Part shown: positions 12,679 through 61,000 of the stretch, piece by piece
Position numbering within the stretch: position 1 is the stretch's first letter
Layout of the letters: every line of letters starts with the position of its first letter
Assembly: GCF_000002985.6 (NCBI RefSeq)
Contig: NC_003284.9
Location: 2,356,001-2,420,000 of the forward strand
DNA from: Caenorhabditis elegans
Taxonomy: Eukaryota; Nematoda; Chromadorea; Rhabditida; Rhabditidae
Length of the DNA stretch: 64,000 nt
Direction: 5' to 3'
Position numbers and translations under genes: made by a program
Notes under the pieces: model-generated
Seen by the model: only the letters and a program-made list of their open reading frames with translations
What the model was told of the DNA's origin: nothing
Databases searched by the model: none

Positions 12679-13020
12679 TCGATCCCCAACAGTCCCGCCC
12701 ACATTTGTCAACACACGGTTCTTACGACAGTTGTCCCTTCATCTCACTCTTCATTCATTTATTCCAGTGAGAGTCCCACACACGACTGGACTTCCATATC
12801 GAGCCACAGCTATCAACGAATTTGCTGGCAAGATGTAGGCAGTTCAGTTGTGCGTTTATGGAGACCAACATCCGGATTAATCCTCTATATTTTCCTCCCT
12901 TCACTGCCATGTTGTCTAAACGTGCCCCTGTGTGCTGTTGCCGAGCCCTTCGTTTCCATAGGGATTTTCGTTCATCCCTTGGAAAAATGAAGCCTGCTGG
13001 ACTATTCCTTCGTTGTAAGT
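12190..13020 (+). promoter_or_regulatory. GC-richer block with two exon-like starts, possible distal promoter or first exons
   Basis: This stretch is richer in GC than the flanking DNA and contains a CA repeat. Two ATGs are followed at short distance by good splice donors: ATG 12192 with TCAAG|GTAACC at 12247, and an ATG near 12988 with TTCGTT|GTAAGT near 13015. Joining the second to the acceptor at 19991 would keep the frame of the 479-aa gene (phase 1, extending its N terminus by about 11 codons). That is a one-in-three coincidence and the intron would be 7 kb. It may equally be regulatory DNA only. Confidence 0.3.
12635..12676. repeat. CA dinucleotide repeat
   Basis: About 21 uninterrupted AC units inside the GC-richer block. 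It produces a Thr-His run in one spurious open frame. Confidence 0.95.
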
Positions 13021-13029
13021 TTTTTTTTT

Positions 13030-16000
13030 AGACTACAAAGCAAAATGGTTCAAAAAACGTTCGGGCTTCCATCTCTTTCCCAGCCTACATCTCAACCTGG
13101 GCTGGCAAGAAATGGCAGTCTACACGTTTTTCAACCAAATGCTATGGCCTTTTTTTATTCTGAAACTTTGTAAAAATATTAGGGAAAAATCGTTTATTCA
13201 AATATAAAAATCAAAAGGAAGCCGAACCGTTATCAGTCACAATTCCATATACATTCAACAATAAACATTTGTGAGTCAATACTCACAAAGAGAATCAATA
13301 AATTGTTATGTCCAAGCAAACCGTCACCATTGTTGCCTTTTTGAACCGTGTGCAAAACGAATTTTTCAATGTACAATGTATCGATTTTTTCATTTTTTCG
13401 GACAGGTTAATGTGCATGACGTGAAACAAAAGAAAAACTATGACACAAAGTGGTGTCTCTGAGAACTGTGCAGGTGTGGTGTCTTACACAAAACTGATGA
13501 CTGTACAAATGTTAGTGCAAATACGTAAAAAGTGCAGCTCAGCGGGAAGGTGAGAAAACCGATCGCACTTAAGAATAACCATTCAGATTACAATAATATG
13601 GTGGGGTTTTGTAGTGCAAGTGGTGATCTATGACAATTTGTGAAAATCTATGTATCGGGTAAGAACTTGTGTAGAATATCTGCCCAAAAATGTTAATCTT
13701 TTTGAACATTTCGAGGGCCCTTTTTATCCATATTAGGCTCAAGATTAGTGTTTTGTTTAAGCCTAAAAATACAAATCAATTTGAAATTTCAATTAGATAG
13801 TCATTTTAAAAATAATTTTTTATAGATTTTTTGGCCCAGAAAATAAGTTTCTGTTTTTAAAATTTTGTTTGAACATCTACCTGAGCATTACTGAAATATT
13901 CAATTAACTCGAGATGCTGAAAAGTGCCGGTGCGCGTAATTTTTTTGTATTCATTGAATTCTGCCATTTTGAATCATCAATTGAACGTAGACGACGATAT
14001 CAGAAAATTACAAAAATTCTCCAAAAACTGTTGACCATAATTGAAAATCAGATTGGTAATTCCGTCTTGGCATGTTCATACCACCAGTCAGAAAAGTGTC
14101 ACTAGAGAAAGTGAAAAATGAAACACATTTATCCTCATTTTTCGAGATTTTTGTTCGCAGACTGTCGCCAGTTGAATGATTGGCAAAAGATCTGATGCAC
14201 TTGAGAAAAAAAATTGGAAAATTAAAAAAAAAATGGTGGCAACTATTTGTAATATGTTGGGGTAAAGGCCACGTGATAGTATTTTCAATTATGAATCGTT
14301 TTCCTGCAAGTTAGGATACACTGGTTTTTTGTGACTTCATAAAATAATTGTAATATGCGAGAACTTCAGGTTCTGAGCCTGAACTGTTTTGTACCACTTT
14401 TGCAAAATGGTTTTTTTCTGATAACCAGTCACCAAAATGTAACTTTTTTTTAGCCAAATAAAAGTTACATTTTGTGCCCCAAAGACCATTAATGTACTTA
14501 AATCAACGGATAAACGCCCAATCAATGACCACAATATTTATTAAAAAGTGATAAACAAATAAACAATTAGGTTCCAGACGTTGCAACACCGAGAAGTTGG
14601 AAAAATTTTGATTTTAGCTGAAAATGGGCCTTATTTTGCCGAACTTTGAATTGCCATAACTTTTTTTTTGGTAGGTTTGGACCGATTTGGGTCTAAAAAA
14701 GCAAAGTCTCAAATTTCAGTACTCCACCTTCAATTGTTCCTTTAATATTTGGAATCAATCCAAATGTTCACCGCTTTAAACGAAAACGGTCAGCACACCC
14801 GTATCAGTGTCTTACTTTCATACAAAACGTGGTACCAGCCTATTGATGCAATAATTCTTATCAGTGAAAATTTACTTGATAACTAAAATTATTAGTTTTG
14901 ATTATACTTGGATTTCAACGAAAAACGGAACAGAGTACTTGGTTTTCTGGATAATAACTAGAAATGTGGAATGGTTTTCACAATTAACTGACTATTAAAG
15001 CAGCAAAAATAGTTCATTGTAGCTTTGATTTTCAAGTGAGCTAAACTATTGCAACAAACTTAAATATACATACGTTTTGAATCACATCAAAATACAGATA
15101 AGAGCATATATAATTTGGGGGAAAGCCTTTCAAAAGTCCTATTGTAATCCGGATAATCAAAATGAGCTGATGTCGTGTATGGGATTTAAAAAAATTAGAT
15201 TGGGACTAAAATATGCAGCCAGAATTTTAAATTCAAATTGTTTTTATGCTCTATTATGATAACACGATAATGATGACAATTAGTTAAACGAAACAAAACG
15301 CGCTCTGTACGAATTGCACTTTGGGCATTAAATTTTCATGTCAAAAACTGATCAAAATGAATAACCCGAAGATGAAGGAAATAAAGTTGTATTTATGTTC
15401 TAGCTAAACTCACAATTTGTGGCAGGGTTTCAAAACTTGCACAAGTAAAGGTGCTTTTGGTTTTTGTTTTCACGTTTTGAATTACGTAGTGTATTGAGTT
15501 CTCAATGGATCTTTTTATGAGTCTAATTATTTTCAAAATTGCAATGTTGTGATATTTTGAAAACAACATTTTTGAAGTCTGTTTTTCTGGCATGAAAACA
15601 ATGATAACACGCAGATACCTCACATTTGAAACAGCTTTAATCATTGACTATCTGGATATATTAAAGAAGATAATTTTAATGAAACGTACTATTTACTTGC
15701 ATGTTTAAGCTCAGAAAAACACTACTCCTTATGTAAGACTAATATAGACAAGGGTGAAATTTTCAAAATGGTTAGCATTTTTGAGGCAGATACACAAGTA
15801 CCAGAAATGACAATAAAACAAGTATAAATATATCACTAAAATGTTTTTAAGCGGAATAAAGACAACATGGCTGGAAACATCGCCTGCATACCCTGGAAGC
15901 CCTAACTAAACTTAATTTAATCCTACCGCCTATTACATTTCCTTCTCAAAAATTTCTTATAATCTGATTTAACATATCCTTTCCACAGTTTTTGACTCAT

Positions 16001-16349: not shown

Positions 16350-18243
16350 TCATATCGAATCAGTTTTGCTCCTCAGTTGGGCAACATACTGCCTCTCAAT
16401 GTACACCACCATTCGATTGATAATATTATTCAATGCGGTTTTTTTTTCTACTTTCTTGTTGCTTTGAAGAATTGCAGTCGGTTGCAAGCTTAAATACAAA
16501 TCCGAATTGTTATTAAAGCTACCAACCGGCTTCAAGTCTGAAAGAGCAGTTGAAAAAAGGTAAGCCTGTTTAAATTTGTTAAAGAGTAAAAAAAAAACAA
16601 AATGGATTTTCGATTAACTGAAAATGTAACGGAAATGAGAAATTTGAAAATCAAATCACACGAAAATGTTCCTGCCAAAAATCGTATTCTGCCATTAACA
16701 GTTGTGTGGACAAAAAAACCTTGACCAATAATATTTTCAGATTCAAAGTACATATTTTGGACTCCGTGGAGCTTGTCAAATTTTCCAGAATATCCAATGT
16801 TTACAAAAATAGTAATTAAAACAACACAACCAAAGAGAAACCCATTTGAATACCGTACAGAAATGCTAGGTAGTTTTTGAAATTTCTCAAAAATGTTTCT
16901 ATTCAAAGGTGGAGTACTGAAACCTAAGACTTTGCTTTGTTAGACCAAAAAGGGCCCAAAACTACTAAGTTTCGTAATGAGACGCTCGGAAAATTTTTCA
17001 GAAAAAAAAGTAGGACGGCTCAAAGTTTTGAAAAAAGTTGCATATTTTCAGCTGAAATCTCAAATTTAGGCAACATTTATCTCCGCGAGTTGTGACTTTG
17101 AACTCGTATTAATCAATCACAGACGTAATGCTTTCAGCTACACTCATTTGGTTTTTTTTTTTCAATATTGGAAAACTCAAATTTATTGAAGTTATACATA
17201 TAAATGATGTGATTATTTAAAACATTTGAAACAAAATAGTAACTCTTTGTAAAATATCTGAAGATCACGAGTCGATGTCAGCTTTCAAAAGCAATGTGCT
17301 CCCCGCTTTTGGGCTATCAATAAAATACACGTAATCATTATTGTCAGACAAGTGTAAAAACTGACATGACAGAGAGCTTTTGATATTTAGAACAACGGGA
17401 ATATAGAAGGGTGAACAATCTCCAATTGGGTACTTGGTTGGCGCTCACAACTTTAGATGCCAACAGACTCACCAAACCATACTTCATTGAAATTTCAAAT
17501 TTGTTGAATCAAAAAATTTGTGAACAAAACTATTATTCCTGCATACGTTTTTATTTTTAAGCTGGAGAGTTACCAGTAAGAAAATTGTTGACAAAATCTT
17601 TTTATGTGCTGGTTAAATAACCAAATATGTCAAACTTTGAAAAATTCTTCGAACTGTGGAAAAAGAGACAATTACTCAGTTATTCGTAAACTTTGTAATT
17701 GAGCAAAAAACAAACAAGACTGGCAAACCGGACTGAATCGAACGTCCGGCGTCAAGTTTTGACAAAAATAATCATTCAACTTTTAAATAAAAATTGAGTA
17801 TGTAGGTTTTTCACGTCGCCCGAAAACTGTGTTTATGAGAAAAAATGTCCGCAATTTTTTCTACTCGACTGATGTGTTCAAACTTCCAACGTTTCACGTT
17901 CACGTTTCATTATTTTTTTAAAACCTAATGTTTTGTCAAAAACTTTGTTGGAAATATTTTTACGGATGGCAGAATGTCCTGCATCAAAATTAATATTGTT
18001 TTTTTTTTGTCGTCTATCAGTACTGTTAGAAATTATGGAAGTTTAAGTTATCAATTATTAATTTTCATCTGTCCGTAGTTTCAAAATTTTTTAAATAAAA
18101 GTTCAATAAAAAGTGCGTCAAAGAATCTTTTTTAAACATTTTGTCGAAAAACTTCGACTTCTAATACAAAACTGATGCCCTCGCGTTTAAGCAATTTTTA
18201 ACATACAAACCACTCAGATTGAAAATTCCACTTTCGAGAAACC
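16350..18243 (-). pseudogene. Decayed or fast-evolving minus-strand gene, unknown protein with one TM segment
   Basis: Several minus-strand segments look protein-coding and sit between good splice sites. The best pair is 16906-16660 joined to 16537-16350 (donor T|GTGATT, acceptor CTTTCAG), an open frame to TGA with a hydrophobic segment (FGCVVLITIFVNIGYS). Upstream, 17443-17269 is open and ends TC|GTGATC in the phase needed to join it. Further exon-like pieces (17653-17574, about 17900-17815, 18022-17925, 18243-18120) have acceptors such as TTCCACAG and TTTCTAACAG, but at least three contain in-frame stops or need frame changes. No start codon can be assigned. I read this as a gene losing its 5' part, with a half transposon in the intron before 16906. 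The family is unknown. Confidence 0.35.
16907..17100. mobile_element. Left half of AAGGTGGRGTAC-family TIR element
   Basis: It begins AAGGTGGAGTACTGAAACC followed by GACTTTGCTTTGTTAGACC, like the left end of 10493-10870, and fades out by about 17100. Its terminus abuts the exon-like frame 16906-16660. Read on the minus strand the element end supplies GGTTTCAG, a perfect splice acceptor. Confidence 0.7.
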
Positions 18244-26695: not shown

Positions 26696-28092
26696 ATGCC
26701 GGATCCACTGGAAGCCTCTATCAATCATATTTTGAAACAAAAAACTCTTAAATGGATTTTTGTGGGTGGAAAGAGAGGTGTCGGAAAGAAGCCGTTCAGT
26801 TGCTCATTGGCAGCTCAACTCAACACAAAAAGTCGTGGAAGAATTCTTCTCAGTCGATCCAGCTCACAACATTTTGGATGCTTTTAGCCAGAAATTCATT
26901 CAAACTCCAACACTGGTCGAAGGATTCGAAAATCTTTTCGCGATGGAAATTGATTCAAATTCAAATGGAGAAGGCGTAGAAATGGGAAATATCAAAAAAA
27001 TGTTCCAAAATGCTGCACAAAACGAAGGTGGAAGCGGTGGATTCTCGATGGAAAAAGACTTTCTTCAAAGCTTTGCTGGAGGATTTCCTGGGATCGATTA
27101 GGCAATAAGTTTCGGGGAAATGATAGAGTTAGTGTCAATGATTCTGATTTTTCTAATATAGTATTTTTTCAGGTTGATAGATTCTCTTGGCTTCGACGTT
27201 GTGGTCTTCGACACTGCTTCAACTGGGCACACTCTTCGTCTTCTTCAATTCCCAACAATTGTTGATAATTTTTTTACCAAAATTCTTTCACTTCAAGGAA
27301 TGTTAGAACCAATGTTGAATAACATCGGTGGAATGTTTGAAATGGAAGATGATGAAACGCTTGAGACGATGATGACAGCTGCAGTGAAAGATTTGGAAAG
27401 GATGAACGCACAGTTCAAGGATCTTGTTAGTTTTTCAGATAATGTATAAGTGCTTTTTAAAATTATTACGGAGAGATATCACCCAGGCGCAAAAAGTACG
27501 GTATCTGGTCTTGGCACGGAAATAAAAAAATGTTAGTTACGTGCGAAAATGTATGAGCCTTTAAAGAATACGATAACTCCAAACTCTCGTTGCTGCAGAA
27601 TTCATCAATAGTTAAATGCAAAACACATTTTTATAAAAAACTATAAAAATTCCAAAAAAAAAATTATGCAGCAACACGTTTGAAACTACAGTAATCTACA
27701 GTAAAGGCGCACGTTTCTTCTGCTTTTCATAGAAAATTTGTCGAGACCTGGTATCAAATTTTGTGCGCAAAATTCTGCGTTTGGGTAATATGCTTGTTTT
27801 TGGATCTCTACAATTATATCAAGGGCAACTTCTAGCTTGATCCATTGGATTCAGAGATTTCAAATCATCAAAATTTCTGCACAGTATTCAAATTTTTATT
27901 TACAGAACTGCACCTTATTCGTCTGCATCTGTATGGCCGATTTTCAAGCCGAACGACATATTCAGGAGTTGTCCAAACAAGGAACCGATACTCATAATAT
28001 TATTGTCAATCAACTTCTCATTCCGGATATCGATGAAAATGGAGCAGTTTCAAGGCGAAAATGTGCACAACAAACCGGCCAAGCTTCAACTT
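26696..28092 (+). pseudogene. Broken duplicate of asna-1 (GET3/TRC40 tail-anchored-protein ATPase)
   Basis: The translated pieces match ASNA-1, the cytosolic ATPase that delivers tail-anchored proteins to the ER. In order they are: [20 protein letters not shown] (26741-26800, the P-loop region, with the TT after the lysine replaced by KP), then a frameshift near 26820-26830. [24 protein letters not shown] runs to an in-frame TAG at 27099. [20 protein letters not shown] begins at 27173 after an intron, and [32 protein letters not shown] follows from 27906. The metal-site CxxC has become SRRKC and the C-terminal 60 or so residues are missing. The copy keeps a TTTTTCCAG acceptor before its ATG and has introns, so it arose by DNA duplication and not from an mRNA. 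It cannot make an active ATPase. Confidence 0.9.
27480..27788. mobile_element. TIR element, ATACCCAGRCGC family, second copy
   Basis: The left end is TCACCCAGGCGCAAAA and the right end AAAATTCTGCGTTTGGGTAA. Internal TATCTGGTCTTGGCACG pairs with GAGACCTGGTATC. It is related to the element at 25662-25931 and lies in the intron-like gap of the asna-1 pseudogene. Confidence 0.7.
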
Positions 28093-29807: not shown

Positions 29808-32800
29808 ATGTACAGTCTTATTGTCCCACCTACCCGCTTCATCATACTTATTGCATGTATTCTCGCATCTATCCAGCTTCTTGTACAATGCTCTCCAATA
29901 TCAACGTCCTACAGAACTCTTCTATACGGGGAAAAGCTGAAAGGCTTTTTGACGGTCAGTATCGTATTAGTGTCGCCTTGTGTGTGAGGAAGTTGTCTTA
30001 TCTTGCGTGTGGGGTGACTGTGCGAGTTGATTCGATTCAGTTGGGGTCGAAATGGAAAGAAAAAAAAAAGATCGAAGTGTAAATCATCCCTTTTATTCTA
30101 GTGTTTCTTCAATCCTTCCAAGGTTGTTTCCAATTTCTATTGTCAATCATATCAAGAAGGGAACGAGAAACAAGAATTTTCGTTTTAGAAATTGATATCA
30201 ACAATCGTATTTTTCACGTTTCCCGGAGCAAAATTCAATTTATAGAAAGAAATTTTTAAAAAATTTGAACTCAAATCATGATGGTGTAGTCGATTATTTT
30301 TTATCGCTTTATTTTTGAAATTATTTGAAAAAACCCAAATTTTAAAATGAAACTTTTTGATAACTTTTCAAAAAAAAGTTATGTGAATGTCGCAGCGGAT
30401 GTGACCTTTTTTTTTGAAATCACCTTCTAATTTTGGGTTTACAAGTTAATTATGTTGCCTTTTCAATCGAGTTAGGTTTTCATTTTTTGAGCCGCGATAA
30501 CGTTTTTGTGAGTAGTTTCCAAGCAGTTTCGTTATGAAATTCGTCGTTTTCAGACAATTTCAAGTATAGTGAAGCAATACTAAAAATTCGACTGGGCTTA
30601 AATATGGCTCAAATATTAAAGCGACAGTACAAATATTAAAGCGACAGTACACTTAAAAAGTGGCAAAAGTTTTTGTCAATAAATCATTTTCAAAATTTTT
30701 TTGAAAAGTTTTGGCGCTATAGGATCATAGGTTTTCAACATTTTCCCCACTACTAGACAGTGTAAAAACTATAATCTGATATCCTTTCTCCATTTTCAAC
30801 TTGGTCTAACAATAACATTCCATGATTTTTTTTCAAAACAAGTCGTAAACGGAAAGGTTTAGAAAATAAACGTCACATGTTTTCCAACAAAAAAAAGTCC
30901 ATTAAATTTTAACCTCTGTGACAGAAAAACAATAGGTCAAACTAGTGCGTCTTGAAAGTACCTCGTCTTGGATCTACATTGACCCAAATTAAAAAGATCA
31001 TAACTATTCTCCTACGATAGACTGATAGACTAACAACCGTGAAATGTTCCATCATTTCCAATCAGTGATTAATCTGTGACGACCAAAAAGATGAAGACAC
31101 ACACGTGATTGGTGGGGGGATAAGGATGCGTTGAAGACCTTCCTTTGCCGTTAGTTTCGATTTTAACGATTTTATTTTCAAAGTTTCAGATATCACCAGC
31201 TGATGAGAATGGGGATACTTATATTGTTAGTTTCGACATTAAAGAGAAACCAAATGATACTTTGGTATGGGCAGTACACACCTCATCCGCTCCTTACGAC
31301 ATGGCTGTAATGACTGATAATTGCCGGCGTGTAAAGAAAAGTCCGCCCGTCGTGAAGAACATGCCGGTCACAGATTCAACCATCGCTGGCGACGGTCTGG
31401 CAGGCAACACGTTGGTGATTTCCGGTGATAACAGCGAGGTGAGGGTCACCAATCATTGCTGTGGACAGTTCTTGCAAGAATAGTTGCAGGTTCTGGCTTG
31501 CGCGACAGTTATCATACCTGGCAAAGAACTGATGCACGCTTCGTTTCACCAGGAACCGATTGAAGGACATGTTCATATAATTCCGATCAAAAATAATGCA
31601 GTATGAGCTTAAATTTGAAGATTTTTAAATGCATGGAATTTGTTTTAGGTTCGCCTGGTACCTGATCTCAAGTATATGCCAAAATATGACTACGTTGAAC
31701 CGGAGAAGAAAATCATGACTTGGGCATTTGTGGATTCTTGTACAGCATTGAATGATTCTACCAAACTAACAGACTACAGTGAAGTTGGTGTCGACTCGAG
31801 AGCGACTTTTGTTTTCAGTAAGATTTATTGATTTTTTTTAAAGGAGGACTAACGGTTCGGACGATTTTGAACGAATAGACCCAAAATGTGATCAAATGAA
31901 CTAATGTCGTAACAAAACTGCTCAAAACTTTTTCAACAGTGTTTTATGCCGGTTCAAAATTTCGTAAAAGTTACACTGATTTTAACTAAAATTAAAAAAC
32001 GAATTTTGCCCACTTTTCTGTGTCACATCTGCCCGAAGTTGACTGTTACGGAATAATCATCTTCTTTGCATATTTTGGTAGTTTATCTCTTTTGATTCCG
32101 TTTATTACAATACATTGAAAGCCATCAGGTAGCCAAAAATCATTGAAATTGATTACCTATTGGTTTTAAATGTGCTTTAATAAACGTAATTGAATGATAT
32201 AATATACCAAAATATACCATTAAGAATGATAATTCCACAAAAGTAAACTTCGAGCTGACACAGAAAAGTGGGAAAAATTCGAGATTTTAGCTAAAATCAG
32301 TGTAATTTTTTTGGAATTTCAAACCGGCATGAAAAATATTTGAGAAGTTTCTTTACGAAACTCGTTCATTTAGGTACATTTTAAGTCTAGATTTTCAAAA
32401 GCGTTCTAACCATTAATCCTCCTTCAATGTTACCACAAAAAGTCCACCAAAAAATAACCGTATCAAGTTCCTTGTGTCTTCTGTACTGTTTCCTCTAAGA
32501 AATTGAGAAAGTAATGTGATAATGGATGAAAACAAAGATCATAACCAACTACATAACTTATATTTCTTATTCAGCACTTCCGGAAAACTACACCTTGGAA
32601 TCATTGGCTTTATATCGCGAAGACAAAATATTTGCATGCGCTGATATCGTGAATGTGGAACCGAGAATACTCAAATCTCTTGGAGTCACACTTCGCCAGA
32701 CACACTATTTTGAACCAGTTATTGGATTGAAATCTCCACCGAAAGAGTTGCATATTAGGGATGATTGTTTAGATATTTCGACGGAGATTGTGCATAAAAA

Positions 32801-35800
32801 CTATTTGAGCTATTATCCTTCGGTTAATATTTTCGGATCCGAATCAATTATGTTAAAGGTATATCCGGTGTCTAGTGGCATTTCATTGCTGGAATAACAT
32901 TATTCAGAGTCTGGTTTTGAACAATTCTTGTAATGCGCTCCGACCACAGTTTGCTCGGCCGGCTGCAATTGCCAACTTCATACACCCTGTAATTGGAAGG
33001 TAATAGTAGGATTAGCGCAAGTGGGGAAATTATTAAATACTACTGAAAACAGTAAAACTTTTTGGAAAAAATTGAAATTTTTTCATTGACAGTGAAAAAG
33101 TGACAATTACGGAGTTTTAGAGCCTCCATGGGAGGCGGGCGCGGTTTCAGAGCTTAACGCCTGCCTCCAACCTGCCCGTCTCACGCCGGCCTCTAGTGTA
33201 AAAAGTGGTTCTTTTGCCGCGGCCGACACTTTTCGAGTTTCTCGCCGAACTATATAACAGCCGATAAATTAAGGTAAAACTACGAGACTTACACAGATGC
33301 AAAACTAAAGCTTACTCGATAAACTTGTTCCTTTCAAGTGTTCTTGTCCTAATTCTAAAAATACATTACAAAAATTTTAAGTTTGGCTAAAAACACTTCT
33401 TAAATTTGCTTTATTTTTAAATTACAGTTGTGGTTGAAATTTTCGAAAAAAATGTTTTAAGCAATCATAAAAGTTTCAGAATTGTACTCGTTGATACAGA
33501 TGACAAAATTTTGCTCACTGGGGAAATTCGAAATATTTTTGATGAAATGTCCACGCGTGCAACTGTGTTGGTATGATCCATTCAATAGATTGAAGACATA
33601 TTATTCGTTTAGATATCCAACAAAACTGCTGAATCGACATCTTGTGCACATACAACGTGCGAAACTTGTCATAAAGTTGAAAACGCTGCCGTCGTGGTCG
33701 GCAAAAATGAAAAAGCAGTGACAATGACTGGAGTTTTCAACTGGTTCAACATATCAGACATGAAGTCTGCCATAATTGATCTCGAATGGATGAAAGTTTG
33801 CGCAAACCTCACAGTTTTGCCTTCCGGAGCCCTCACAATGCATGCCATGGTGAAAAGAGTCGCTCCGTTTTCATCGGCTACCGTCGCCTCGCTTGTGGCT
33901 TTGGAATATCCGGCCAACAATTATACGGAGGTCTGATTCATTTTAATTTTGAAAAAAGTTGTAGCTTTTCATTTCCAGATTCTGATTAATAAAAAGCAAA
34001 AATTCTCCGACGTTCAAGCACATTTCCGTCCTCTCGATCGGAGTATCACAAGTGGTCCCCCATGTGGAGAACAGAATTTAGGAGGCGTCACAAAACTTCC
34101 TTGGGTTGAAGAACTAAAGAAAAATTTCATGAGTCACGAAAACGATTCCAGTGTGATTTTTGACGAACGGTTTGTCACCGGCGTGACGAGTATGCTTGGC
34201 ACTTCAATTCTCCTCAAGGAAGGGAAGGATGTTTTCTGTGGACACTTTGAACCGCCCAGTGAAAGGACAGTCGCGTTTGCTGAACTTGGACATCCTTTTG
34301 ATGGGTATATTAAAATGGTGAGCTCAATAGTGTATCACGAAAAAAAATACTTTTTTCTTATAATTAGTAAAAAAGTTTTTCTTAAAAATAATTGCACTCA
34401 CTTGCAAGCTTTCGAATGACAATTCCAAAAATGTTGTAGTAATTTTTTTATTAAAACACCGTTGACTAGGTATTCCAACTGTAAGGTAAAAAATTTTCAG
34501 ACACAATACACAAAATCGAATTGGGAATCCGGATTTCCTACTGAAATCTATTATTCTTTGAAGTACATGAATCAAATTGACCCCACAGTCAACCCGGTTT
34601 GTTACTTTTTTTTGAAAATAATAATGGGGTTCCGAGTGCGTTTATCCCTTTTTTTCAGATTTTTTGCTACAAAAAATGGCAAAAAAGGATGAAAATGCAC
34701 TTGAATACCCTCATAAAGTTTTTAAATTTATCCTCCAAATTCAGGAATCAGTGACATGGGACATTGTGAGCGATCAAAACCTAACTTGCAGCTCTGCAGT
34801 TATTTTTAATCCGCTACAAGTAGATGTGAGTGGTTTTTTTTTCCGAAATCACATTTGCATTCACATAATTTCAGGAATCTGAATGCACTAGTCAGCGATA
34901 TGAGTTTTGTCCCATCGGAAGTGCTTCAAACCGCTCAAAGCCGCTGCTAATGCACGCCCGCTGGCATTTAACTGCTCAGGGTTTTCCGCTATCCGGCCCT
35001 TATTCAGGTATGTGTATCACTCATAGGAGGCGGAATTCGAAGCGTGTGAAAAAGTCATGAAATGTTGATGTCGCCTTACCGTCTATTTTATTGCAGTAAT
35101 CGGCAAGACACTCAGACTGCAATCGATCAAGAACCCAAACCAGATTGGCTGTTACCCAGTTAAAAAAGTCTCAGAGGTAAACAATAAATCAAACAAGGAA
35201 CCAAAAGGGGCCCTAAGAAAAAATAAAATAAATCTACCCTAATTGACAGAAAACAGTCCCAAGATACCAAATATGAATGTAAAATAATTAATTTAAAAAA
35301 TTCTAAATTTTGTATTATTTTTTTCAATTCTGGAAAATATTTGTGACAAATTCGATATTTGTAACCTAAAAACTATCGTTGAATATTCTCGTTTTTTAAG
35401 ATTTTTTTATTATGTGACATTGATTGTGATTTAAAAATTATACACTGTTTAGAATTTTTTGATTTTCTGAAAAAATCAATTGGATTTTGATGTCAGATTT
35501 TTTGATGTCAGTTATCTTTAAAAAACAGTAATTTTTGATAATTGTACCCTACAAACTATACTTGAATATTCTAGTTTTTCTGGACATTTATTTATTTATT
35601 ACGTGACATTTATTGTGAATTTAATAATTTAGAAATGTTCGATTATTTACAAAAAAAAAGTAATTTGTAATTAGATGCCAATTATTTTCTAACAAAAATA
35701 AGTGTTTTTTTTAAATATTCACAATCTCAAAACTATACTCGAATACTCTATTTTTACGTGAGAAAAAATCTTTTATTATTGGAAATTTATTGCAATTTAA

Positions 35801-36597
35801 AAAGCAATTAGAAATTTTCGATTATCTAAAAATGTTGGATTATGATGCCAAAATAAAACCATTTTTCAAAATTTTGGGCCGCCATAAAAAATTTCAAAAA
35901 ACTAAATTCGTTAATTTGAGCTTATTTTCAGTCTATACATTCAAAATACCGAAAACCGTTAGTACACTTTTAAGCATTTTTGTCAATTGAAAAATGTATT
36001 GTAATATCTTGAAATTTGTCTAACCCCACGGCAAGTTCGTGCAAGACTATTTTCCACTAGGCTCATAGCGCCCCTATATTGGGAATACGGCATATTTCCA
36101 GGCAACTTTCCGATGGGTGGTTTACACCAATACTTCGCTGTCTACTGTGCAGCAAAAGATTTCTGACAAAGCCGGAGTTCCGTCATTCAAGGTATGAACA
36201 AGTTGAAAATATATTATTGCACATATATTTACAGGTAGAAGTTGATTATACAAGGGAACTCTATCAAACACGATGCACAATATTTAGAATCACAATTTTA
36301 GGTAAGTGCACTTTTTTGTAGCTACAGAAGTTCAAAGAGAGTAAAGAATTATTACCCACAACTTTTGTTTCAGAGAACGATGAAAAACTGGAACAAATCT
36401 TAGACTCTTTTGATGTGGAAGCAAGAAAGTTTATCAATGATACGGAGCTCGTTTGTAGTGAAACACAGCCGTTGACAGTCGATGCAACTAATGCAATATC
36501 ACAGAATATTATCACATCCTCCACATCCTCACTGATATTTTCAATTCCCTTGCCAATATCCCTACTGTTCATCTTACTGGCTCGTTGTTTTCTGTAA
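29808..36597 (+). CDS. GPI-anchored protein of Cu/Zn-SOD-like repeats (CSRP-type), metal ligands degenerate, 856 aa
   Basis: Sixteen exons join in frame: 29808-29954, 31190-31438, 31490-31600, 31649-31817, 32575-32858, 32908-32999, 33480-33570, 33613-33930, 33979-34317, 34501-34596, 34745-34825, 34875-35007, 35097-35176, 36102-36191, 36235-36301, 36374-36597. An N-terminal signal peptide (TRFIILIACILASIQLLVQC) and a C-terminal hydrophobic tail (SLIFSIPLPISLLFILLARC) indicate secretion and a GPI anchor. Between them SOD-like units recur, seen as LKGFLTISP..DTYIVSFD..LVWAVH, GNTLVISG..VLACATV, MLGTSILLKEGKDVFCGHF and SVIGKTLRLQ..IGCYP. In copper-only SOD repeat proteins the metal site is HVH; here it is AVH, AFV or absent, so catalysis is doubtful. 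The role may be copper or surface binding. No single conserved domain is strong, so family assignment is moderate. Confidence 0.75.
31841..32426. mobile_element. Long-TIR fold-back element in SOD-gene intron 4
   Basis: It starts AAGGAGGACTAACGGTTCGG and ends GTTCTAACCATTAATCCTCC, with inverted arms extending nearly to the centre (for example TGATTTTAACTAAAAT against ATTTTAGCTAAAATCA). The centre carries the CATATTTTGG..ATTGA core seen at 9020-9195. About 586 bp, non-coding; the same family is at 54473-54925. Confidence 0.85.
33115..33260. repeat. GC-rich dispersed repeat in SOD-gene intron 6
   Basis: CATGGGAGGCGGGCGCGG..TTAACGCCTGCCTCCAACC forms an imperfect inverted pair, followed by CTGCCCGTCTCACGCCGGCC. 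Its GC content is far above the intron around it, marking it as an inserted repeat. I see no second copy in this window. Confidence 0.5.
35370..35860. repeat. Degenerate tandem repeat, about 180-bp period, in SOD-gene intron 13
   Basis: AAACTATCGTTGAATATTCTCG (35371), AAACTATACTTGAATATTCT (35547) and AAACTATACTCGAATACTCT (35729) recur about 176 and 182 bp apart. Each is followed by a TTATTATTGTGACATTTATTG-like stretch and then GATTTTCTGAAAA or GATTATCTAAAAA. It is an old three-copy tandem duplication within a 925-nt intron. Confidence 0.7.
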
Positions 36598-39504
36598 TTG
36601 TTTTTGACAATCGGTTCATCAAATACGTGTATAACTGCGTTTTTAATAATGATATATATATTTTTCCCCTGCTCACCCCGCCTCGGTTGAAAGATAAATC
36701 TGTAAATATGGAGCCGAGTAAGTGAAGTGGTTGCGTTCGTATAACGCGATTATAAACATCCGGTTGGTGATGTGCACATCAACAGGGGCTCCTACTCACT
36801 TCAGATGAGAGCTTCTTCTCTTTTTAGCAATTTACTACGTAATTCCACCTGTCCCGTTTTGAAGGAAATAAAACGTGAAACCGCCGTGTTAACTTTCGCA
36901 ATGTGTTTTTTTTTGGAATTTGAAAAGTATTTATTTAAATTTTCATTTTACCAAATTAAACAATAATTGCAAAATTGAGAGGACAAAATTGAAAATTGAT
37001 ATCGTTTCAATTTTACACTATTATTTTTTCACACTTTTCTAACAAAATTTATGACGGTTCAAAATTCGGTCACTTTTCCGTATTGAAGCGGTTGGAAATT
37101 AACTTTTTCTGAAATATCATCATATTTTTTCTCATATTTTGGTCTTTTATCTCACTGTATTTCAAGGTGTTAATTCGAAAAAGTCAATTTCGAACAGCTT
37201 CAACACTGAAATTTAAGCACATTTTGGGCACAAATGTTTAAAATACCCCGAACCGTTAGTCTTTTTATAGATGGAGTTTTGCCCTAAGAAACGGAAAACG
37301 GTTCAAATATATCATAAATAAATTTGAACCAATTTATATAGTTTTTCTGAATTTTTTAGTAATTTTTTCAATTTTGCATAAAATGCGATAGGTTAAATTA
37401 TTTTTATTCAATGTTTCGACTTTTTTTTTCGAAATTTTGAACTCTGTAGGTTTTGCCCTAAACGACTGAAAACAGTTCAAATGTATTAAAAATGAATCTA
37501 AAACGAGTTTATAAAAATTTTCTGAATTTTCCAACGAATTTGAAAAGGCTGAAATATTTCTGAACTTTCGCGCAAAATTTTGAACCGCCATAAAAAATTA
37601 AAAATTTTATTCTAGATATATCATTACAAAATTCGTTTATTTTAGCACATTTCGAATCTATCCGTTCAAAATTCCCCGAACCGTTACAACTTGTTGATCT
37701 AAAAGTGTTTCCATGTATTCCTGTGCCTCATTTTTTTTTCTCTCAACATTTCGCAACGACGCTCATGTACACACGACGCGTGTATACATGTCGTTACCCT
37801 GTATCTAGGCGAGCTGATATCTACTATCAGGATTCCGTGGAATTTTTGAGTAGAATTCATCAAATTTGTGTGAATAAATGTCACATGAAGACGGCAGTAA
37901 GCAACGCATAAATCGACCCTGTGTGGAAAGAAGGCGATGGAGAATGAGAGAGGAGGGGAAAGGGAACCTTATTTCTGGGTGGTGCCCCCGAAAACCACCA
38001 TCGACAATTTTCTTTCACGTCAAAACTAGCAATGTTTCTTGCAGCGGGGGGCTAGGTGGGGCTCCAGAACTTTTCATGTTCCCTCTTCTTTTTTATACGA
38101 GCTATTATGACAAGTTGCACTGCTGCAGTACGTTGTACTTGAATAAAAAAAACGGATATTACTTTTATTTCTATAAAAACCGAATACAACACATGATAAA
38201 GAATATTCAAGTTAATTACCATAGTGCAGCACGTGAAAGTGTTATCTTTCCACGATATCCTGTGCACATGATATGGACTTCATTAGTGCACCTGGCTATT
38301 TTCAACATGTGCATCGGTTCTATTCTCCCTTTTAATTTGTAGTCATTCATTACTCTCATTTTCTCATATTATTTCCTAGACGTAAATTGATATGAGTAGT
38401 TGGTCCATTTTAAAACTTTAAAAGTTCTGTGATCCAAAATGTACTTCCCATTTTTCGGCACATTGAGGAATTTTTCAATACGCTTTTTCTCAACGTTGTG
38501 TCAAAATTTTATTTTTGGTTATATAAAAATTTTAAAGTTATATAGAAATGTAGAGAAGTGTTAATAATCTTAGAGACTAACTTTACTTTTAACTGAAAGT
38601 TTTTGAAAAATTGTGGTGGCCAGTGTTATATACACACCAGGATTGGAGCAACTTTTCAAAACTTTTTATTGAAAATAAAGTCATTTTAGAAAGTACTTAT
38701 ATTTCTATTTAAATTTCCAAAAAAAAAGCTTTGACACAACGAAAATAAAGATAATTTGTAATGATTATTATTAATTGGAAAACTTATTAACCTCAATTTA
38801 GTAGTTAAAAGGTGGAGTAGCGCCAATGAGGATATCTTTGAAATACTATTGTAATCTAATATTTAAAACAACCGAATAACAATAAAACACGGCAAAAAGT
38901 TGTTAATTTTCAAAAATTTTAGCACATTGCTAAACTTTAAAACATTATACGCTTTTTTATTTCTCTTCCAAATTATTCGCTTCCAGAGAAATGTCGCATG
39001 TTCCGACCCCTAAAATAAAATTAAAGTATAAAAATCTTATATAAAAATCAAATATTAGTAGTTTTGAACCCTTTTCCTCACTGCCGCTACTCTACTGTGG
39101 ACGGGACCCTACCTTTTCATCAATTTAAATATATTTCGAGTTTGCCCTACTGTCGGTTCCATCTAATCTTCCATTATTATATCAAAACCAGTACCCTTCA
39201 AATTTTATAACAGCTACAAATTGTATGATTTCTCTTCAAACTGTATGCCACTAATGCTCACTTTTAAATGTTTATTTTATAGCTTTCCAAAATCGCAATC
39301 CAGCGAGGGGACACCGGCAGTGGTGTCCACTTCTGTTCCATTAGAAGGCCACCTTCGACAGCAGCATTCACACCGGTTACTTAGCGACGCGAGCCGTCTA
39401 TTAGCGTGCAGAAGAAGGAGAGGGAGAGAGTGGTCACCAACTCGGAGAGCAGCATATAAAGCTTGACCCTTACGAGTCCCTGATATTCCGCCGACGGGTC
39501 GGGA
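36598..39504. other. Spacer with element remnants and a short ORF
   Basis: 3' flank of the SOD-repeat gene, then AT-rich DNA. At 36805 an ATG directly follows CACTTCAG and opens 53 codons to 36966, a weak gene candidate. Remnants of the AACGGTTCGGGG-type elements lie at about 37025-37260 and 37430-37690. 37700-38060 is less AT-rich, with ACACGACGCGTGTATACATG, a short palindrome. A copy of the GTGGAGTAGCGCCA repeat starts at 38809. 39100-39500 is probably the promoter of the lectin gene. Confidence 0.45.
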
Positions 39505-42500
39505 ATGAGGTGCACAATATGGCCGTTGTGGCTGTCACGACTATTAATATTATATTATTTATCAGTGCCGGTTATAGTCATTGCGCAGAACACCACCTGT
39601 TCAGGTATGTCTAATTTGATTTTTTTTTGTTTTAGTTTCTACTTTTTTTCATTTTCAGGAACCGTAGTTTTAAATGCAACTAAGGAATTACAGTACTTGA
39701 CAACTCCTAACTATGAATTGAGTTATAAGTATCCTCCTTTTTTAGATTGCCGTTTTTTCATAAAAGCGCCAGATAAAACACGAGTTGTTGTAGAAATAAT
39801 TGATATGGAAATGGAACCCAGAATATTTGACGAATGTTCTGATTATGTTGGTTTTGCAGAAGGTATGTCAATGTTTTCAAATCTTGTAGTGTAGTTCAGT
39901 GTATGTATAAAGGAAGCATGGAAGCCATAGATTATGCACTCTAAATCCAAAATAAAACCCGATAATTTCAGATGTGACCGAGAAAAATATTTCAAAAATG
40001 CTCACTCTTTGTGAAACTCTGACAAAGCGACAGGTACTTGAAAATACTATTAATTTAGAAATATTGAAGTTTCAGTATATATCATCAACCAACACATTGA
40101 CCATTATTTTCCAGTCAGATGAGCTTATAGAATATCGAGGTGCAAGGTTAAGCTATCAATATCACGGTAAGTACTGTTTAAAAAAAAGAACAAAAAAATC
40201 AAATTTCGTAGTTTTTAGTAAAATTTAAATAAAGAGTGGTTTGGAATAGGTATGTGCTTAAATGAACAAATTTAGTAATGAAACTTTTCAAAAAATGTTC
40301 AAAATTTTTTATTATGGTGGCTCAAAGTTTGAAAAAAAGGTCAATTTTATGTAGTTAAATTAAAATTTTGACAACTTATCCGTGTCGCAGCGGTCCGAAA
40401 TTGGTTTTTTTTACGAAATATCACTTTATTGCATATTCGGATAGATTTTCTTACGTTAGTTCGTTGATTAATAGTAAGGAACAATCAGCCGGCCTATCGC
40501 TGCCACTCGCGGCTCAAGTAAAGAGCGACGCGGAACCCCGAACGTGTCGGACGCCGCGGCGTTCTCACATCGAAGCCTTAATGATCATTCAAAAAATTGA
40601 TTTTCGGACCGCTGCGACACGGGAAAGCGGCCTAAGTTGGAGAACCGCTAAACAAAATTTTTGAAAAAAATTGAAAATTTTAGAGATATTTCATTACGAA
40701 ATTCGTTCAAGTGAGCACAATTAGAGTCTATATAACTGAAATACTGCGGCATGTATTTAGAAACCTGAAATTTCTGAATAGAGCACTAGCAATATGACTT
40801 CTGGGAAAACTTACAAGTCTTAGAGAACAAATTGAGATTTAGATAACTAACTCCCTCTTTTAAAAAATTTGTCTTAGATATTACCACTTGCCCTCCTGGT
40901 TGGACTGAGCTATCGGACGGCAAATGCGTGAGACATGAGATTGATCAAAAGACTGACTGGATCACGGCTCAGAATCGTTGCATGGAACAGCAGAGCAATC
41001 TCATCACGATAGAAACTGGTGCCAAAACCACGGAACTTGAAAGTTGGTTTGGTGCAGGCTTTTTCTGTCATTTCCCAAAATTTGCAGATTTATTTAAAAG
41101 TGTTCCCACGAGGTTTTGGACTGGAGACACGGATGCAACAACCGAGGGATTGCTTGTCGGAATCAATGACAGAGAAGCTCCAAACATCCCAGGGTAAGCA
41201 TAGTTTTCTCACGGTATTCATTCTAAAAATTGGTTTAAGTCGTGAATCCGGAAATAGTTACACTGACAATAACGACAATAATGATTGCATGACTGTCCAC
41301 TTCGGTGATAATCAACCTTTTCGAATGGATGGTTGTGCGTCTTTCAATGCATATATTTGTGAGATGAAGAAAGATGGAACGACTGTCCTGTACCCGCCAC
41401 CGGTTCAAAACATCCAAGATGGATCCAACTCTCACAATTCAGCATACGCACTTTGGCTTTTGCTGTTTTTAATTGGGTTACTGTTTTTGACAATAATGGC
41501 GTTTTTGTGTTTCAGTGAGTATTCTTATTTCCCTCATGATTTTTTTTCTTCAACACGGTTGTTTTAGTGTGCTGGAAACAAAAGGACGCAAGAGTTCACA
41601 CGGAAACTTCCGGCGTTCAGCAGAATGCATTCATGAGCGAGACTACTCATCGCATAGATCAACAATCCAGAACATCTGGAAATGGGCAACGTAAGTTGGT
41701 CTAAAAAAATGCAACTTGTATAGCAAAATGTTTTAGTCACTTCGGTCAATAATAAAAATTATCTCAATCAACGAATAAACGCGTAATAAACTACGTGATA
41801 AACACTGAAAAGTTGTCAAATTTTGAAGTTTTAGCTAAAAATATATTTAACTTTTTTTTTCCAAAACTTTGTGCGCCCATAACTTTTTTTGAAAAATTTT
41901 CAGAACGTTTCATTACGAAATTTGGTAGTTTTGGAACACATTGGGTCCAAAAAACCAGTCTCAAATTTCAATACTCCACTTTTAAAAGTTAAAGACAATT
42001 TTTTTGGATTGACAACGTGTTATAAAAAGCATGCTTTATAACAATTTCCCCCTGGCGCTACTCCGCATTTAAAACGCCAAAATGTTAACTTCTACAAACC
42101 TCTTATTTTAGTATAAGGGTTTTTAAATATTCTCTTGGAAACTCCACTTTCATACATATAGAAGCTTTTTTTTTGTTTTCAGAAATTGCTCCAGTAGCAT
42201 CTTCGTCTGGCGGAGCCAACCGTACATCTCGAAATTCGCCAATCAATGTCCCTATTGAAAACAATAGACCAATCAAGAAATTTCCAATGGCACCAGTTCC
42301 GAATCGCTTACCAATGGCTGAAGAACCATCTGGAGGATCGGAGCATGTTGTGGAAACAGGCATACTTGGAGCTAATAATGATGATGATGTTGAATCGGTC
42401 AGTGCTGCTCCGAGAGCTCAAACAAGAACACTCCCACCAATGCCAACGAGAGAAGGAACGTTCCAGAGTATTAATACGAGGTCAGCAAAAAAAATGCCGT

Positions 42501-58063: not shown

Positions 58064-61000
58064 CTAGTATTGGAAGGCTGTGTTCTCATAAGCTGAAACA
58101 GAATTTGATCGTTTCGTCCGTCGAAAGGTGTTTCCATTGGTTTTTGTGCCATTTGTAAGTTTAGGAGCATCTTGCTTAACACCATTTGTATGAAAACCAT
58201 TTGGAACGACTTGTTGGGATTGTTTCATTTCAAGTTCTTCTTGCTCTTTTTCAGCGGCTTTTCTTGCTTTCCTTCTGAACAGTGGATTTTTAAATTAATG
58301 ATAGCTTGGCATTTAGAGCAATCTTCTCGCTCAAATTAATGAAGGGTACTTGTGTAGTTAAATGGCCCAAACTAACAAGTTTTCAGTTCATTTCTTTTGA
58401 ATTGATAATTTACTTGAAAAGTGAAATTGATTTGCATTTTTAGGCCTAGAGAAATTCCTAAAGTAAGCCTAACGTTGTCAAAAATGGTCACGTAAAATTT
58501 TTAACAAGGCTAACATTTTTGTGCCAGGTATGCTACGCATGTACCTAACTTTGATAGACACTTGGCAAAGACATGGTCAGACTTGATTCAGGCTGTGCCC
58601 ACGTTTAGCTCAAGTTGAGCTAAGTCAACGACATAAAAAAAGTTCGGGGCAAAATTATACTTGAACACAGCCTGAGCCCAGTCTTGCCCAAAATTTTACC
58701 AACTTCGGGAGAAGAACCTTACTTTAAATGCCAAGATTCTATCTGAAAAAAGTATTCCAAACATACTTATAATAATAGTATTCAAATGCCAAAGTGACTA
58801 TGGAAAGTGCAATGCCGGCTAGAATAACGATGAATACACCTCCAATGTTTTGAATCGAAATGCCATCACTTTCATCCGATGAGTCAGGGCAGGAGACTTT
58901 ATTCGGGTTATCTGTCCACCATTTCTCCTTTAATGTTTCCAGACGACGTTCATTGAGTAGCATCAAAATTCTGCAAGACTCCTTGTTTTTTGAATATGTA
59001 GGTATGATGTATTTTTCCTTACGCGCTTGATATTTTATCTTTCAATATGTGTCCACTCTGAACTGCAATGGCGTATGGTTTTCTTGAAAATTCGGTTCCT
59101 ACTTGTTGAAGATTGCAGTTTGTTAAAGCTGCATACTTTATTTCAGTAGCATCTCCTGCAAATTCAAACATTTCAAAATTTCGAAATAACGAGGCACAAA
59201 CCAATAAAAGCAAATCCATCAACAGAGTTCAAGACGCGATCTACTGCAGTATCCATATTAACTGGCAGCTTAGACTCTTGCATGTACCTCCACATATTGG
59301 TAAACTTGTCAGAAACAGGATAGTCCCATACTGCGAGCTTTGCTCTATCCCGTGGAGACATGCTCTCGTTCAAAGACATCTCTTTCCACATACTGCAAAT
59401 TATAGTTTTTTAAAACATTATTTTAATAATGTATCTTACTTATAGAATGTTTCTTCAATTTCAGCCATTCTTCTGAAATACGTCTCTGATGCGCTTCCTT
59501 TAATTGGTGCATATTCAATTTTGTATTGCTTTGCCAAATCATCCAAAGAACTTAAAAATAATAAAAAAGTCTGAATTTACTCAAAGTATATCTTAAAGTC
59601 AAATCACCTGATTGGTTGTTCCAGGCGTGAAACTGTTAGAAACGCTGCCAGATTTGCTGTGTATGATGCAATTATAATAAATCCAAAAAGCCACCATGTT
59701 GCAGCAACCAAACGGCCGGAAATATTTTTTGGTGCTTCTCCGCCTCCTAAAAATATGAATATTATTTTAAAGATATGAGTAGCGCCAGAATATCATATTT
59801 TAAAAAAATTCAAAAAAAGTTTTTAAATTTCATATGATTTTTTGAAAATCAAAAAAAAATCTCGCTGAACTTCGATTTTGCGACAGTGCTATAGCTTACT
59901 CCCAAAGTGGTAATTACACGTTTTAACTCAATAAAAATTTTTACACGTTTCATTATGATATTTAAAAGTTTTTGGGTTTTTTTTTCCTAATTTTTCCACG
60001 ATCCAAGTAGGGACAAAAATGTCTTTTTAGACCTTTTTTGTTGCGGGAATAGCTCAGTAGGCAGGGATTTCCGGTTGCAATCTAGAGGTCACGAGTTCGA
60101 GTCCGGCTTCCCCCTTTGGTTTTTTCAACTTGTTAGTTTGCTTGTTAGCTTAAAAGTGGAGCAATCCACGACTGGGCTATCGGCCACTGTCACCAGCTCG
60201 GGTGTGGCTTGAACTAGACCTCAGTCGGAGCATAACCAAAACTTCCCTTCATGCTCTGATTCGAACTATCATACTATCCTTTTTGAATGGAAAATGTTGT
60301 ACTTAAAACGTTTTTTTGAAAATTTTTTCAAAAAGTTTTTGTTGTTGTTGAAAAGCACAATTTAATTAGCTGGTATCAGTTGTAGGAAAACCAAGGGTGA
60401 AAAAAAGTGCAAAAGTGCATGTTTCTCTTTTTTTGAATTGGGAAATAGCGGCAAACAGGACAAAAATGGACAGGATAACCCCATAAGCTTACCTTGAGGT
60501 GTTAATGACGTCATGCAGAACCACAAGCACTCTTTCAGACTAAACTGTCGTTTTTCAATGTCATTCTGATACCTGCAAAAATTAAAGCACAAATCACACA
60601 CTAGACTTTGCACTTATACCTTTCTTTGTTGTTGGTAAACGAATAGGGACTAAACCGATCGAATATCCATAGCAAAATGCTCGTGAACAAATATGCAGCA
60701 ACTATGCACAACCAAACGGGCCACTCTAGCACTTTCATAAATTTGAACAACGAATACTCCACATCAGCTTTTTTCATGAGAATTGTCGTTCCAACGAGGT
60801 CATAATAGGGAACTGTAAAATCCACATCGTTTTCTCTTTCAGCCATAACACTGAGTGGAGCAAGTGCGATATCTGCGGATCCAGAAACCAGAGCTCCAAT
60901 GAGCCCATTCCAGTTTCCATTATCATCCATCGTACCAAAACTTCCATCTTCAACTTCATAGATAGTGTAAGTGAAGTTGACTTCCACTTGTATCATGTTA

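Follow-up and report, generated by a model that had tools for sequence, protein, structure and literature searches.

A 64,000-nucleotide stretch of the Caenorhabditis elegans genome (assembly GCF_000002985.6, contig NC_003284.9, positions 2,356,001 to 2,420,000 of the forward strand; hereafter the window, whose numbering is used throughout) carries a 16-exon gene at 29808-36597 (+), the product of which we propose to be related to the animal copper-only superoxide dismutase (SOD) repeat proteins (CSRP; synonyms CUSR, SOD4 and Rsod). The canonical copper site is lost throughout the 856-amino-acid protein, a hairpin signature recurs along it, and its sixth repeat unit resembles SODs. On balance we favour a diverged, copper-less CSRP/Rsod relative, i.e. 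a secreted, glycosylated and probably glycosylphosphatidylinositol (GPI)-anchored row of SOD-like barrels followed by a small C-terminal domain, and membership in the CSRP/Rsod family is likely. The preliminary description of this locus, derived from the letters of the DNA and a list of open reading frames (ORFs), had suggested a GPI-type protein of SOD-like repeats without copper; this is still the best available reading, with the copper loss firm but the fold only moderately supported.

Gene structure and protein ends

The coding chain runs in a single frame from the ATG at 29808 to the stop codon at 36595-36597 and comprises 2571 coding bases including the stop. Splicing and translation reproduced exactly the boundaries and the 856-residue product of the preliminary description, with GT..AG borders in 15 of 15 introns (Table 1), and GC content was 42.6% in exons vs 31.0% in introns. 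The product contains 21 cysteines, 18 histidines and 13 N-glycosylation sequons. Its two most hydrophobic segments lie at the ends, with 17-residue maxima of 2.53 at the N-terminus and 2.55 in the last ~25 residues (1.73 elsewhere). The C-terminal segment holds none of the 18 histidines and no acidic residue, and the protein terminates directly after it. The hydrophobicity profile agrees with the signal peptide and GPI-type tail described earlier, and the protein is probably secreted or GPI-anchored. Cysteines 17, 28 and 854 fall in or at the ends that would be cleaved.

Table 1. Features of the gene and its product; positions refer to the window.
Feature	Residues	Position	Strand	Remarks
Whole gene	1-856	29808..36597	+	16 exons, 856 aa; splicing and translation
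Exons 1-8		29808-29954, 31190-31438, 31490-31600, 31649-31817, 32575-32858, 32908-32999, 33480-33570, 33613-33930	+	
Exons 9-16		33979-34317, 34501-34596, 34745-34825, 34875-35007, 35097-35176, 36102-36191, 36235-36301, 36374-36597	+	
Signal-peptide-like N-terminus	1-28	29808..29891	+	hydrophobic maximum 2.53/17 residues; cleavage site by eye
Unit 1	33-141	29904..31516	+	Cys 94 + 136; WAVH 76-79; hairpin motif at 121
Unit 2	142-252	31517..32654	+	Cys 200 + 247; WAFV 194-197
His cluster (unit 2)	H148, H152, H159, H161	31535..31576	+	4/18 histidines in 14 residues, with the only HxH
Unit 3	253-337	32655..32958	+	Cys 290 + 328; cysteine pattern; least certain of the units
Unit 4	338-449	32959..33816	+	Cys 392 + 444, also 397 + 400
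Unit 5	450-578	33817..34251	+	Cys 516 + 574; hairpin motif at 561
Unit 6	579-728	34252..35170	+	Cys 647 + 722, also 663 + 671; framework retained
C-terminal domain	729-830	35171..36516	+	Cys 774 + 810; not SOD-like in the tests used
GPI-type hydrophobic tail	831-856	36517..36594	+	hydrophobic maximum 2.55/17 residues

Two introns have features of their own. Intron 4 contains nested inverted repeats at 31930-32346 (arms 31930-31992/32284-32346, 32000-32025/32256-32281 and 32060-32136/32149-32225), resembling a small non-autonomous DNA transposon. Past the end of exon 13 the reading frame continues through 21 codons of intron 13 and then meets a stop (35097-35242, +); if this intron is retained, the product would be secreted and lack both the C-terminal domain and the GPI tail.

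Loss of the copper site

The HVH ligand pair of SODs had been described as AVH, AFV or missing. WAVH and WAFV are indeed present in units 1 and 2, but an intact HVH at residues 159-161 (31568-31576), the sole HxH of the protein, had been overlooked. No histidine stands 8-30 residues beyond it, and after H161 the next is H269, leaving 107 residues without one; in yeast SOD1 and SOD5 further histidines lie 15-16 and 72-76 residues past the HxH. When unit 2 was aligned with units 1 and 6, the motif sat in the strand-2 region and not in the copper strand. Since the further histidines are absent, HVH 159-161 was ruled out as a true copper site.

In unit 6 the ligand positions are taken by T636, D638 and I652 according to the alignment and, at the fourth position, by Q712 as judged by eye. 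Many CSRP/Rsod, though not all, carry a copper site and an E110/D113 signature in some of their repeats; in unit 6 the D113 position is occupied by S675. Unit 5 allows two registers, H502 being either an HxH ligand or, in the yeast alignment, the loop histidine, and a site arises from neither. An HxH followed by two further histidines at SOD spacing occurs nowhere in the protein. Mapping of the histidines onto the copper site, which had been recommended at the outset, gave no canonical site in any unit, and the loss in all of them is firm whatever register is chosen. As no unit is able to form the copper site, the protein would not dismute superoxide by the SOD mechanism.

Repeat units and their signatures

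In the reading that we propose, one cysteine pair can be assigned to each unit (the first pair given for it in Table 1), with possible extra pairs in units 4 and 6 and in the C-terminal domain. The six pairs suggest six units, the usual number in CSRP/Rsod. In unit 6 the distances between the cysteines (75) and from cysteine to glycine (59) are like those of SOD5 (75 and 60) and unlike those of yeast SOD1 (89 and 57). When the units were aligned together with MAFFT, their cysteines failed to line up, and this alignment was discarded.

The strand 7-8 hairpin motif of the copper-only type (G-x-[ST]-h-x-h, 3-12 residues, h-x-C) was found at residues 121, 561 and 706, in units 1, 5 and 6. The turn is short in all three, with no extended loop VII, as in CSRP/Rsod. 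Three such motifs were reached by none of 20,000 shuffles, an optimistic figure because the motif was written after the sequence had been read; in 501 six-frame ORFs from bacterial loci, SODs among them, it occurred once, and among 36 reference SODs the short-turn form was seen in SOD5 only. A second hairpin expression (R1b) gave 3 matches, equalled by 16 of 20,000 shuffles. A loop expression (R2) matched unit 6 but none of the 36 real SODs, whose spacing is longer by one residue; R2 was therefore mis-specified and was not used.

Similarity to SOD profiles

Ordinary SOD models lean on the metal ligands, so we masked seven ligand columns and compared each unit by HHalign with two SOD profiles, a three-sequence eukaryotic one (yeast SOD1, a SOD1 variant and a SOD5 fragment) and one of 36 mostly bacterial sequences, against 300 shuffles that kept the hydrophobic pattern (Table 2). 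Unit 6 exceeded every shuffle on the eukaryotic profile, aligning over 114 columns with 25% identity (score 26.4, probability 20%) and with the landmarks in the right order. In sliding windows (step of 10 residues for the real protein, 20 for shuffled proteins) the maximum of the protein was again at unit 6 (26.4); scores did not exceed 20.0 when the profile was reversed, nor 22.0 in 8 shuffled proteins. Shorter matches fell at register-consistent places: 16 columns in unit 1 (strands 2-3) and 17 in unit 5 (strand 7) on the eukaryotic profile, and 23 in unit 4 on the 36-sequence profile, in strands 2-3 where the proposed register expects them.

Table 2. Shuffles scoring at least as high as the real unit.
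Test (number of shuffles)	Unit 1	Unit 2	Unit 3	Unit 4	Unit 5	Unit 6	C-terminal domain
HHalign, masked, eukaryotic profile (300)	12	187	192	26	10	0	128
HHalign, masked, 36-sequence profile (300)	25	15	124	3	0	119	96
HHalign, unmasked, three-sequence profile (100)	2	43	55	17	2	0	42
HHalign, unmasked, 36-sequence profile (100)	3	12	89	0	1	32	27
Repeat, pattern-preserving shuffles, three-sequence profile (200)	10	93	136	25	3	1	64
36-sequence SOD hidden Markov model (2000)	126	224	584	78	14	not reported	not reported

Pairwise Smith-Waterman comparisons with pattern-preserving shuffles (42 tests, nine with p<0.05) paired unit 6 with vertebrate-type SOD1 (p 0.005) and, out of register, with the yeast enzyme (p 0.015), unit 5 with yeast (p 0.015) and SOD1 (p 0.021), and unit 3, out of register, with SOD1 (p 0.027). 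Between units, 1 paired with 2 (p 0.010) and 2 with 6 (p 0.021). With plain shuffles, reversed references reached p 0.009 once, for unit 5.

Taken by unit, these comparisons appear clear for unit 6, weaker for unit 5, marginal for units 1 and 4 and almost absent for units 2 and 3. The SOD fold of the repeats is only moderately supported, with one unit clear on one of two profiles, one weak, and the others resting mainly on the cysteine pattern. The HMM-HMM comparison (HMM, hidden Markov model) named as a check in the preliminary description supported the idea for unit 6 against one of the two profiles; the other units were weak, marginal or failing. The repeated SOD-type signatures claimed there are partly borne out, by the masked tests and the recurring hairpin but not by the Pfam and PDB searches, which gave no SOD.

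In those searches, Pfam at E<=10 returned no SOD, Sod_Cu (PF00080) included, for the whole protein or for 7 pieces of it, and in the PDB phmmer detected none with the full protein or with units 1, 5 and 6 as queries. In phmmer comparisons with three individual SODs the scores stayed under 3 bits. The unmasked 36-sequence HMM gave the whole protein 0.9 bits, equalled by 19 of 1000 shuffles. A zf-RING match (E 0.057 for the whole protein, 0.0081 for unit 4) was below its cut-off and was rejected, and the C-terminal domain had no Pfam family over cut-off, DUF2100 appearing only at E 0.087. The spliced protein found no relatives in viral or genome contig collections (six peptide patterns each), which hold few or no animal genomes and are uninformative on orthologues; a fungal copper-only SOD-like query found none in the viral contigs, again a collection with few or no animal genomes. 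AlphaFold models of two uninterrupted pieces, in which short introns were translated along with the exons, stayed at a pLDDT (predicted local distance difference test) below 50 throughout (means 33.9 and 30.2), too uninformative to weigh for or against any fold. Foldseek with the first piece gave 662 matches at E<=10 and 0 at E<=0.001, with no SOD among the best 50 of the 662, from which nothing was concluded.

Alternative explanations

The most serious alternative is a surface protein whose disulfide-bonded beta domains are of another kind, either immunoglobulin-like or with an undescribed fold, and in which the likeness of unit 6 to SODs would be due to chance or convergence. Several results weigh against SOD-like barrels; those of the standard searches, the split between the profiles and the control scores also point in this direction. 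Apart from the Pfam and PDB searches without SOD, the two SOD profiles disagree on which units they support: unit 6 was indistinct from shuffles on the mostly bacterial one (119/300), and neither unit 2 nor unit 3 stands out on both. HHalign probabilities were low, 20% at most. The cysteines of units 1-5 are 42, 47, 38, 52 and 58 residues apart, whereas the distances in real SODs are longer (75, 89), and the hairpin motif fits no more than 12 of 36 reference SODs even with a longer turn permitted. Control sequences score near units 1-5; when reversed, the C-terminal domain still scored 20.1 with the masked eukaryotic profile, higher than any of these five units, and in the repeat with 200 shuffles it outscored all units (19.1, compared with 18.8 for unit 6). 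The C-terminal domain itself pairs with unit 6 (p 0.017) and unit 1 (p 0.030), and its scores and pairings mark the noise level of these tests. On the other hand, unit 6 aligns domain-wide with its landmarks in the right order, the hairpin motif is present three times, and Pfam gave no alternative family either. We consider another beta fold unlikely, though deserving of real weight.

A second alternative is that metal is handled in a non-classical way by H148, H152, H159 and H161, which in unit 2 would share a face of the hairpin formed by strands 1 and 2. The crowding of these histidines, with the sole HxH among them, speaks for such a site, but an equally dense cluster arose in 672 of 20,000 shuffles and the hairpin geometry is a presumed one, so that we regard it as very improbable. 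Least credible is a division of the exons between two genes, or an otherwise wrong gene model, which the long introns 1, 4 and 13 (1235, 757 and 925 nt) and a model drawn from sequence would allow, but against which the reading frame is kept across all 16 exons with GT..AG at every border, a single signal-like start and a single hydrophobic end are present, and every proposed unit crosses exon borders.

Proposed function

Under the favoured explanation, a copper-less CSRP/Rsod relative, the gene would encode a secreted, glycosylated and probably GPI-anchored protein of tandem SOD-like beta-barrels, most likely six, and a C-terminal domain. Each barrel would retain its cysteine pair, and three or more of them also the short hairpin seen in copper-only SODs. 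Most likely the ectodomain would be rigid, stabilised by disulfides and exposed at the outer membrane face, where it may bind a partner in adhesion, recognition or a receptor-like role. An ectodomain without a redox metal is, we infer, best read as a cell-surface binding scaffold. This role is plausible because, according to the excerpted text of a 2026 review (PMC13017621), CSRPs contain 4-12 repeats, most often six, are either secreted or held by a GPI anchor, have lost copper in the first repeat or the first two, and in Bombyx mori and tardigrades are without any obvious copper site. Since copper-less members have been described, the copper site is not strictly defining for the family.

Significance

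According to the same excerpt, CSRP sequences have yet to be identified in any member of Nematoda. Excerpts of a survey of 65 eukaryotes including C. elegans confine CSRPs for the most part to winged insects, tardigrades and a number of aquatic animals (PMC7730656), those of a 19-species survey including C. elegans name no nematode among Rsod holders (PMC9524095), and the word CSRP is absent from the excerpts of a nematode-wide antioxidant survey (PMC7694339). A nematode CSRP was not reported in titles and abstracts of the literature searched, a body that largely excludes subscription journals. Judging from these excerpts, a CSRP lacking copper is no novelty in itself, being reported from the moth and from tardigrades, but a nematode member would be. 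If our interpretation is true, a Caenorhabditis member without a copper site fills a gap in the distribution of the family and suggests a wide distribution of the non-enzymatic form among moulting animals. The role of the copper-less moth and tardigrade members, left open in the excerpted review (PMC13017621), could then be addressed in an animal with routine gene removal, reporters and tissue expression. That nematodes kept CSRP/Rsod as a copper-less, six-barrel, GPI-anchored protein beyond profile detection, converted from a dismutase into a binding scaffold at the cell surface and possibly with a new histidine site in unit 2, seems to us evenly poised.

Other features of the window

Precursors of mir-73, mir-74 and mir-75, families not known outside Caenorhabditis, lie at 12771-12863, 13052-13132 and 16460-16548 (+) and score over the Rfam gathering thresholds; by themselves they assign the window to this genus. 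Three ORFs match known families: 5574-6053 (+), a neurotransmitter-gated ion channel (Neur_chan_memb, E 5.8e-13); 26736-27098 (+), ArsA_ATPase (E 1.3e-17); and 60604-61068 (-), an ionotropic glutamate receptor (Lig_chan-Glu_bd, E 6.2e-32). At 39484-41194 (+) a CUB domain ORF (E 0.00026) precedes one that is C-type-lectin-like (UL45, E 0.0095, below cut-off); the two perhaps form a single gene. A tRNA-Cys with anticodon GCA is located at 60043-60115 (+).

Comparison with known systems

Unit 6 is like the fungal copper-only SOD5 (PDB 4n3t) in its cysteine spacing of 75 and its short turn; unlike unit 6, SOD5 is a single domain with an intact copper site, and the pairwise comparison of the two was not significant (p 0.65). 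Within nematodes, the extracellular SOD3-like isoform of Steinernema and clade IVb is also a SOD relative thought to be metal-independent, repeats going unmentioned in the excerpts of its description (PMC7694339).

With the animal CSRP/Rsod, the protein shares the short strand 7-8 turn, many introns and a GPI-type tail with a probable extracellular location, and probably also a tandem row of six units joined by short linkers, to each of which a cysteine pair can be assigned; the honey bee Rsod has 1100 amino acids and 18 introns, according to the excerpt of its report (PMC1847502). It differs in that no unit has a copper site, that it has diverged past Pfam detection, that units 1-5 are compact and that it comes from a phylum reported, in the excerpted review, to be without the family (PMC13017621). 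Going by their description in the same excerpt, it would resemble the copper-less CSRPs of Bombyx mori and tardigrades, which have six domains, no obvious copper site and a supposed non-SOD role; those CSRPs are predicted to fold like the copper-binding ones.

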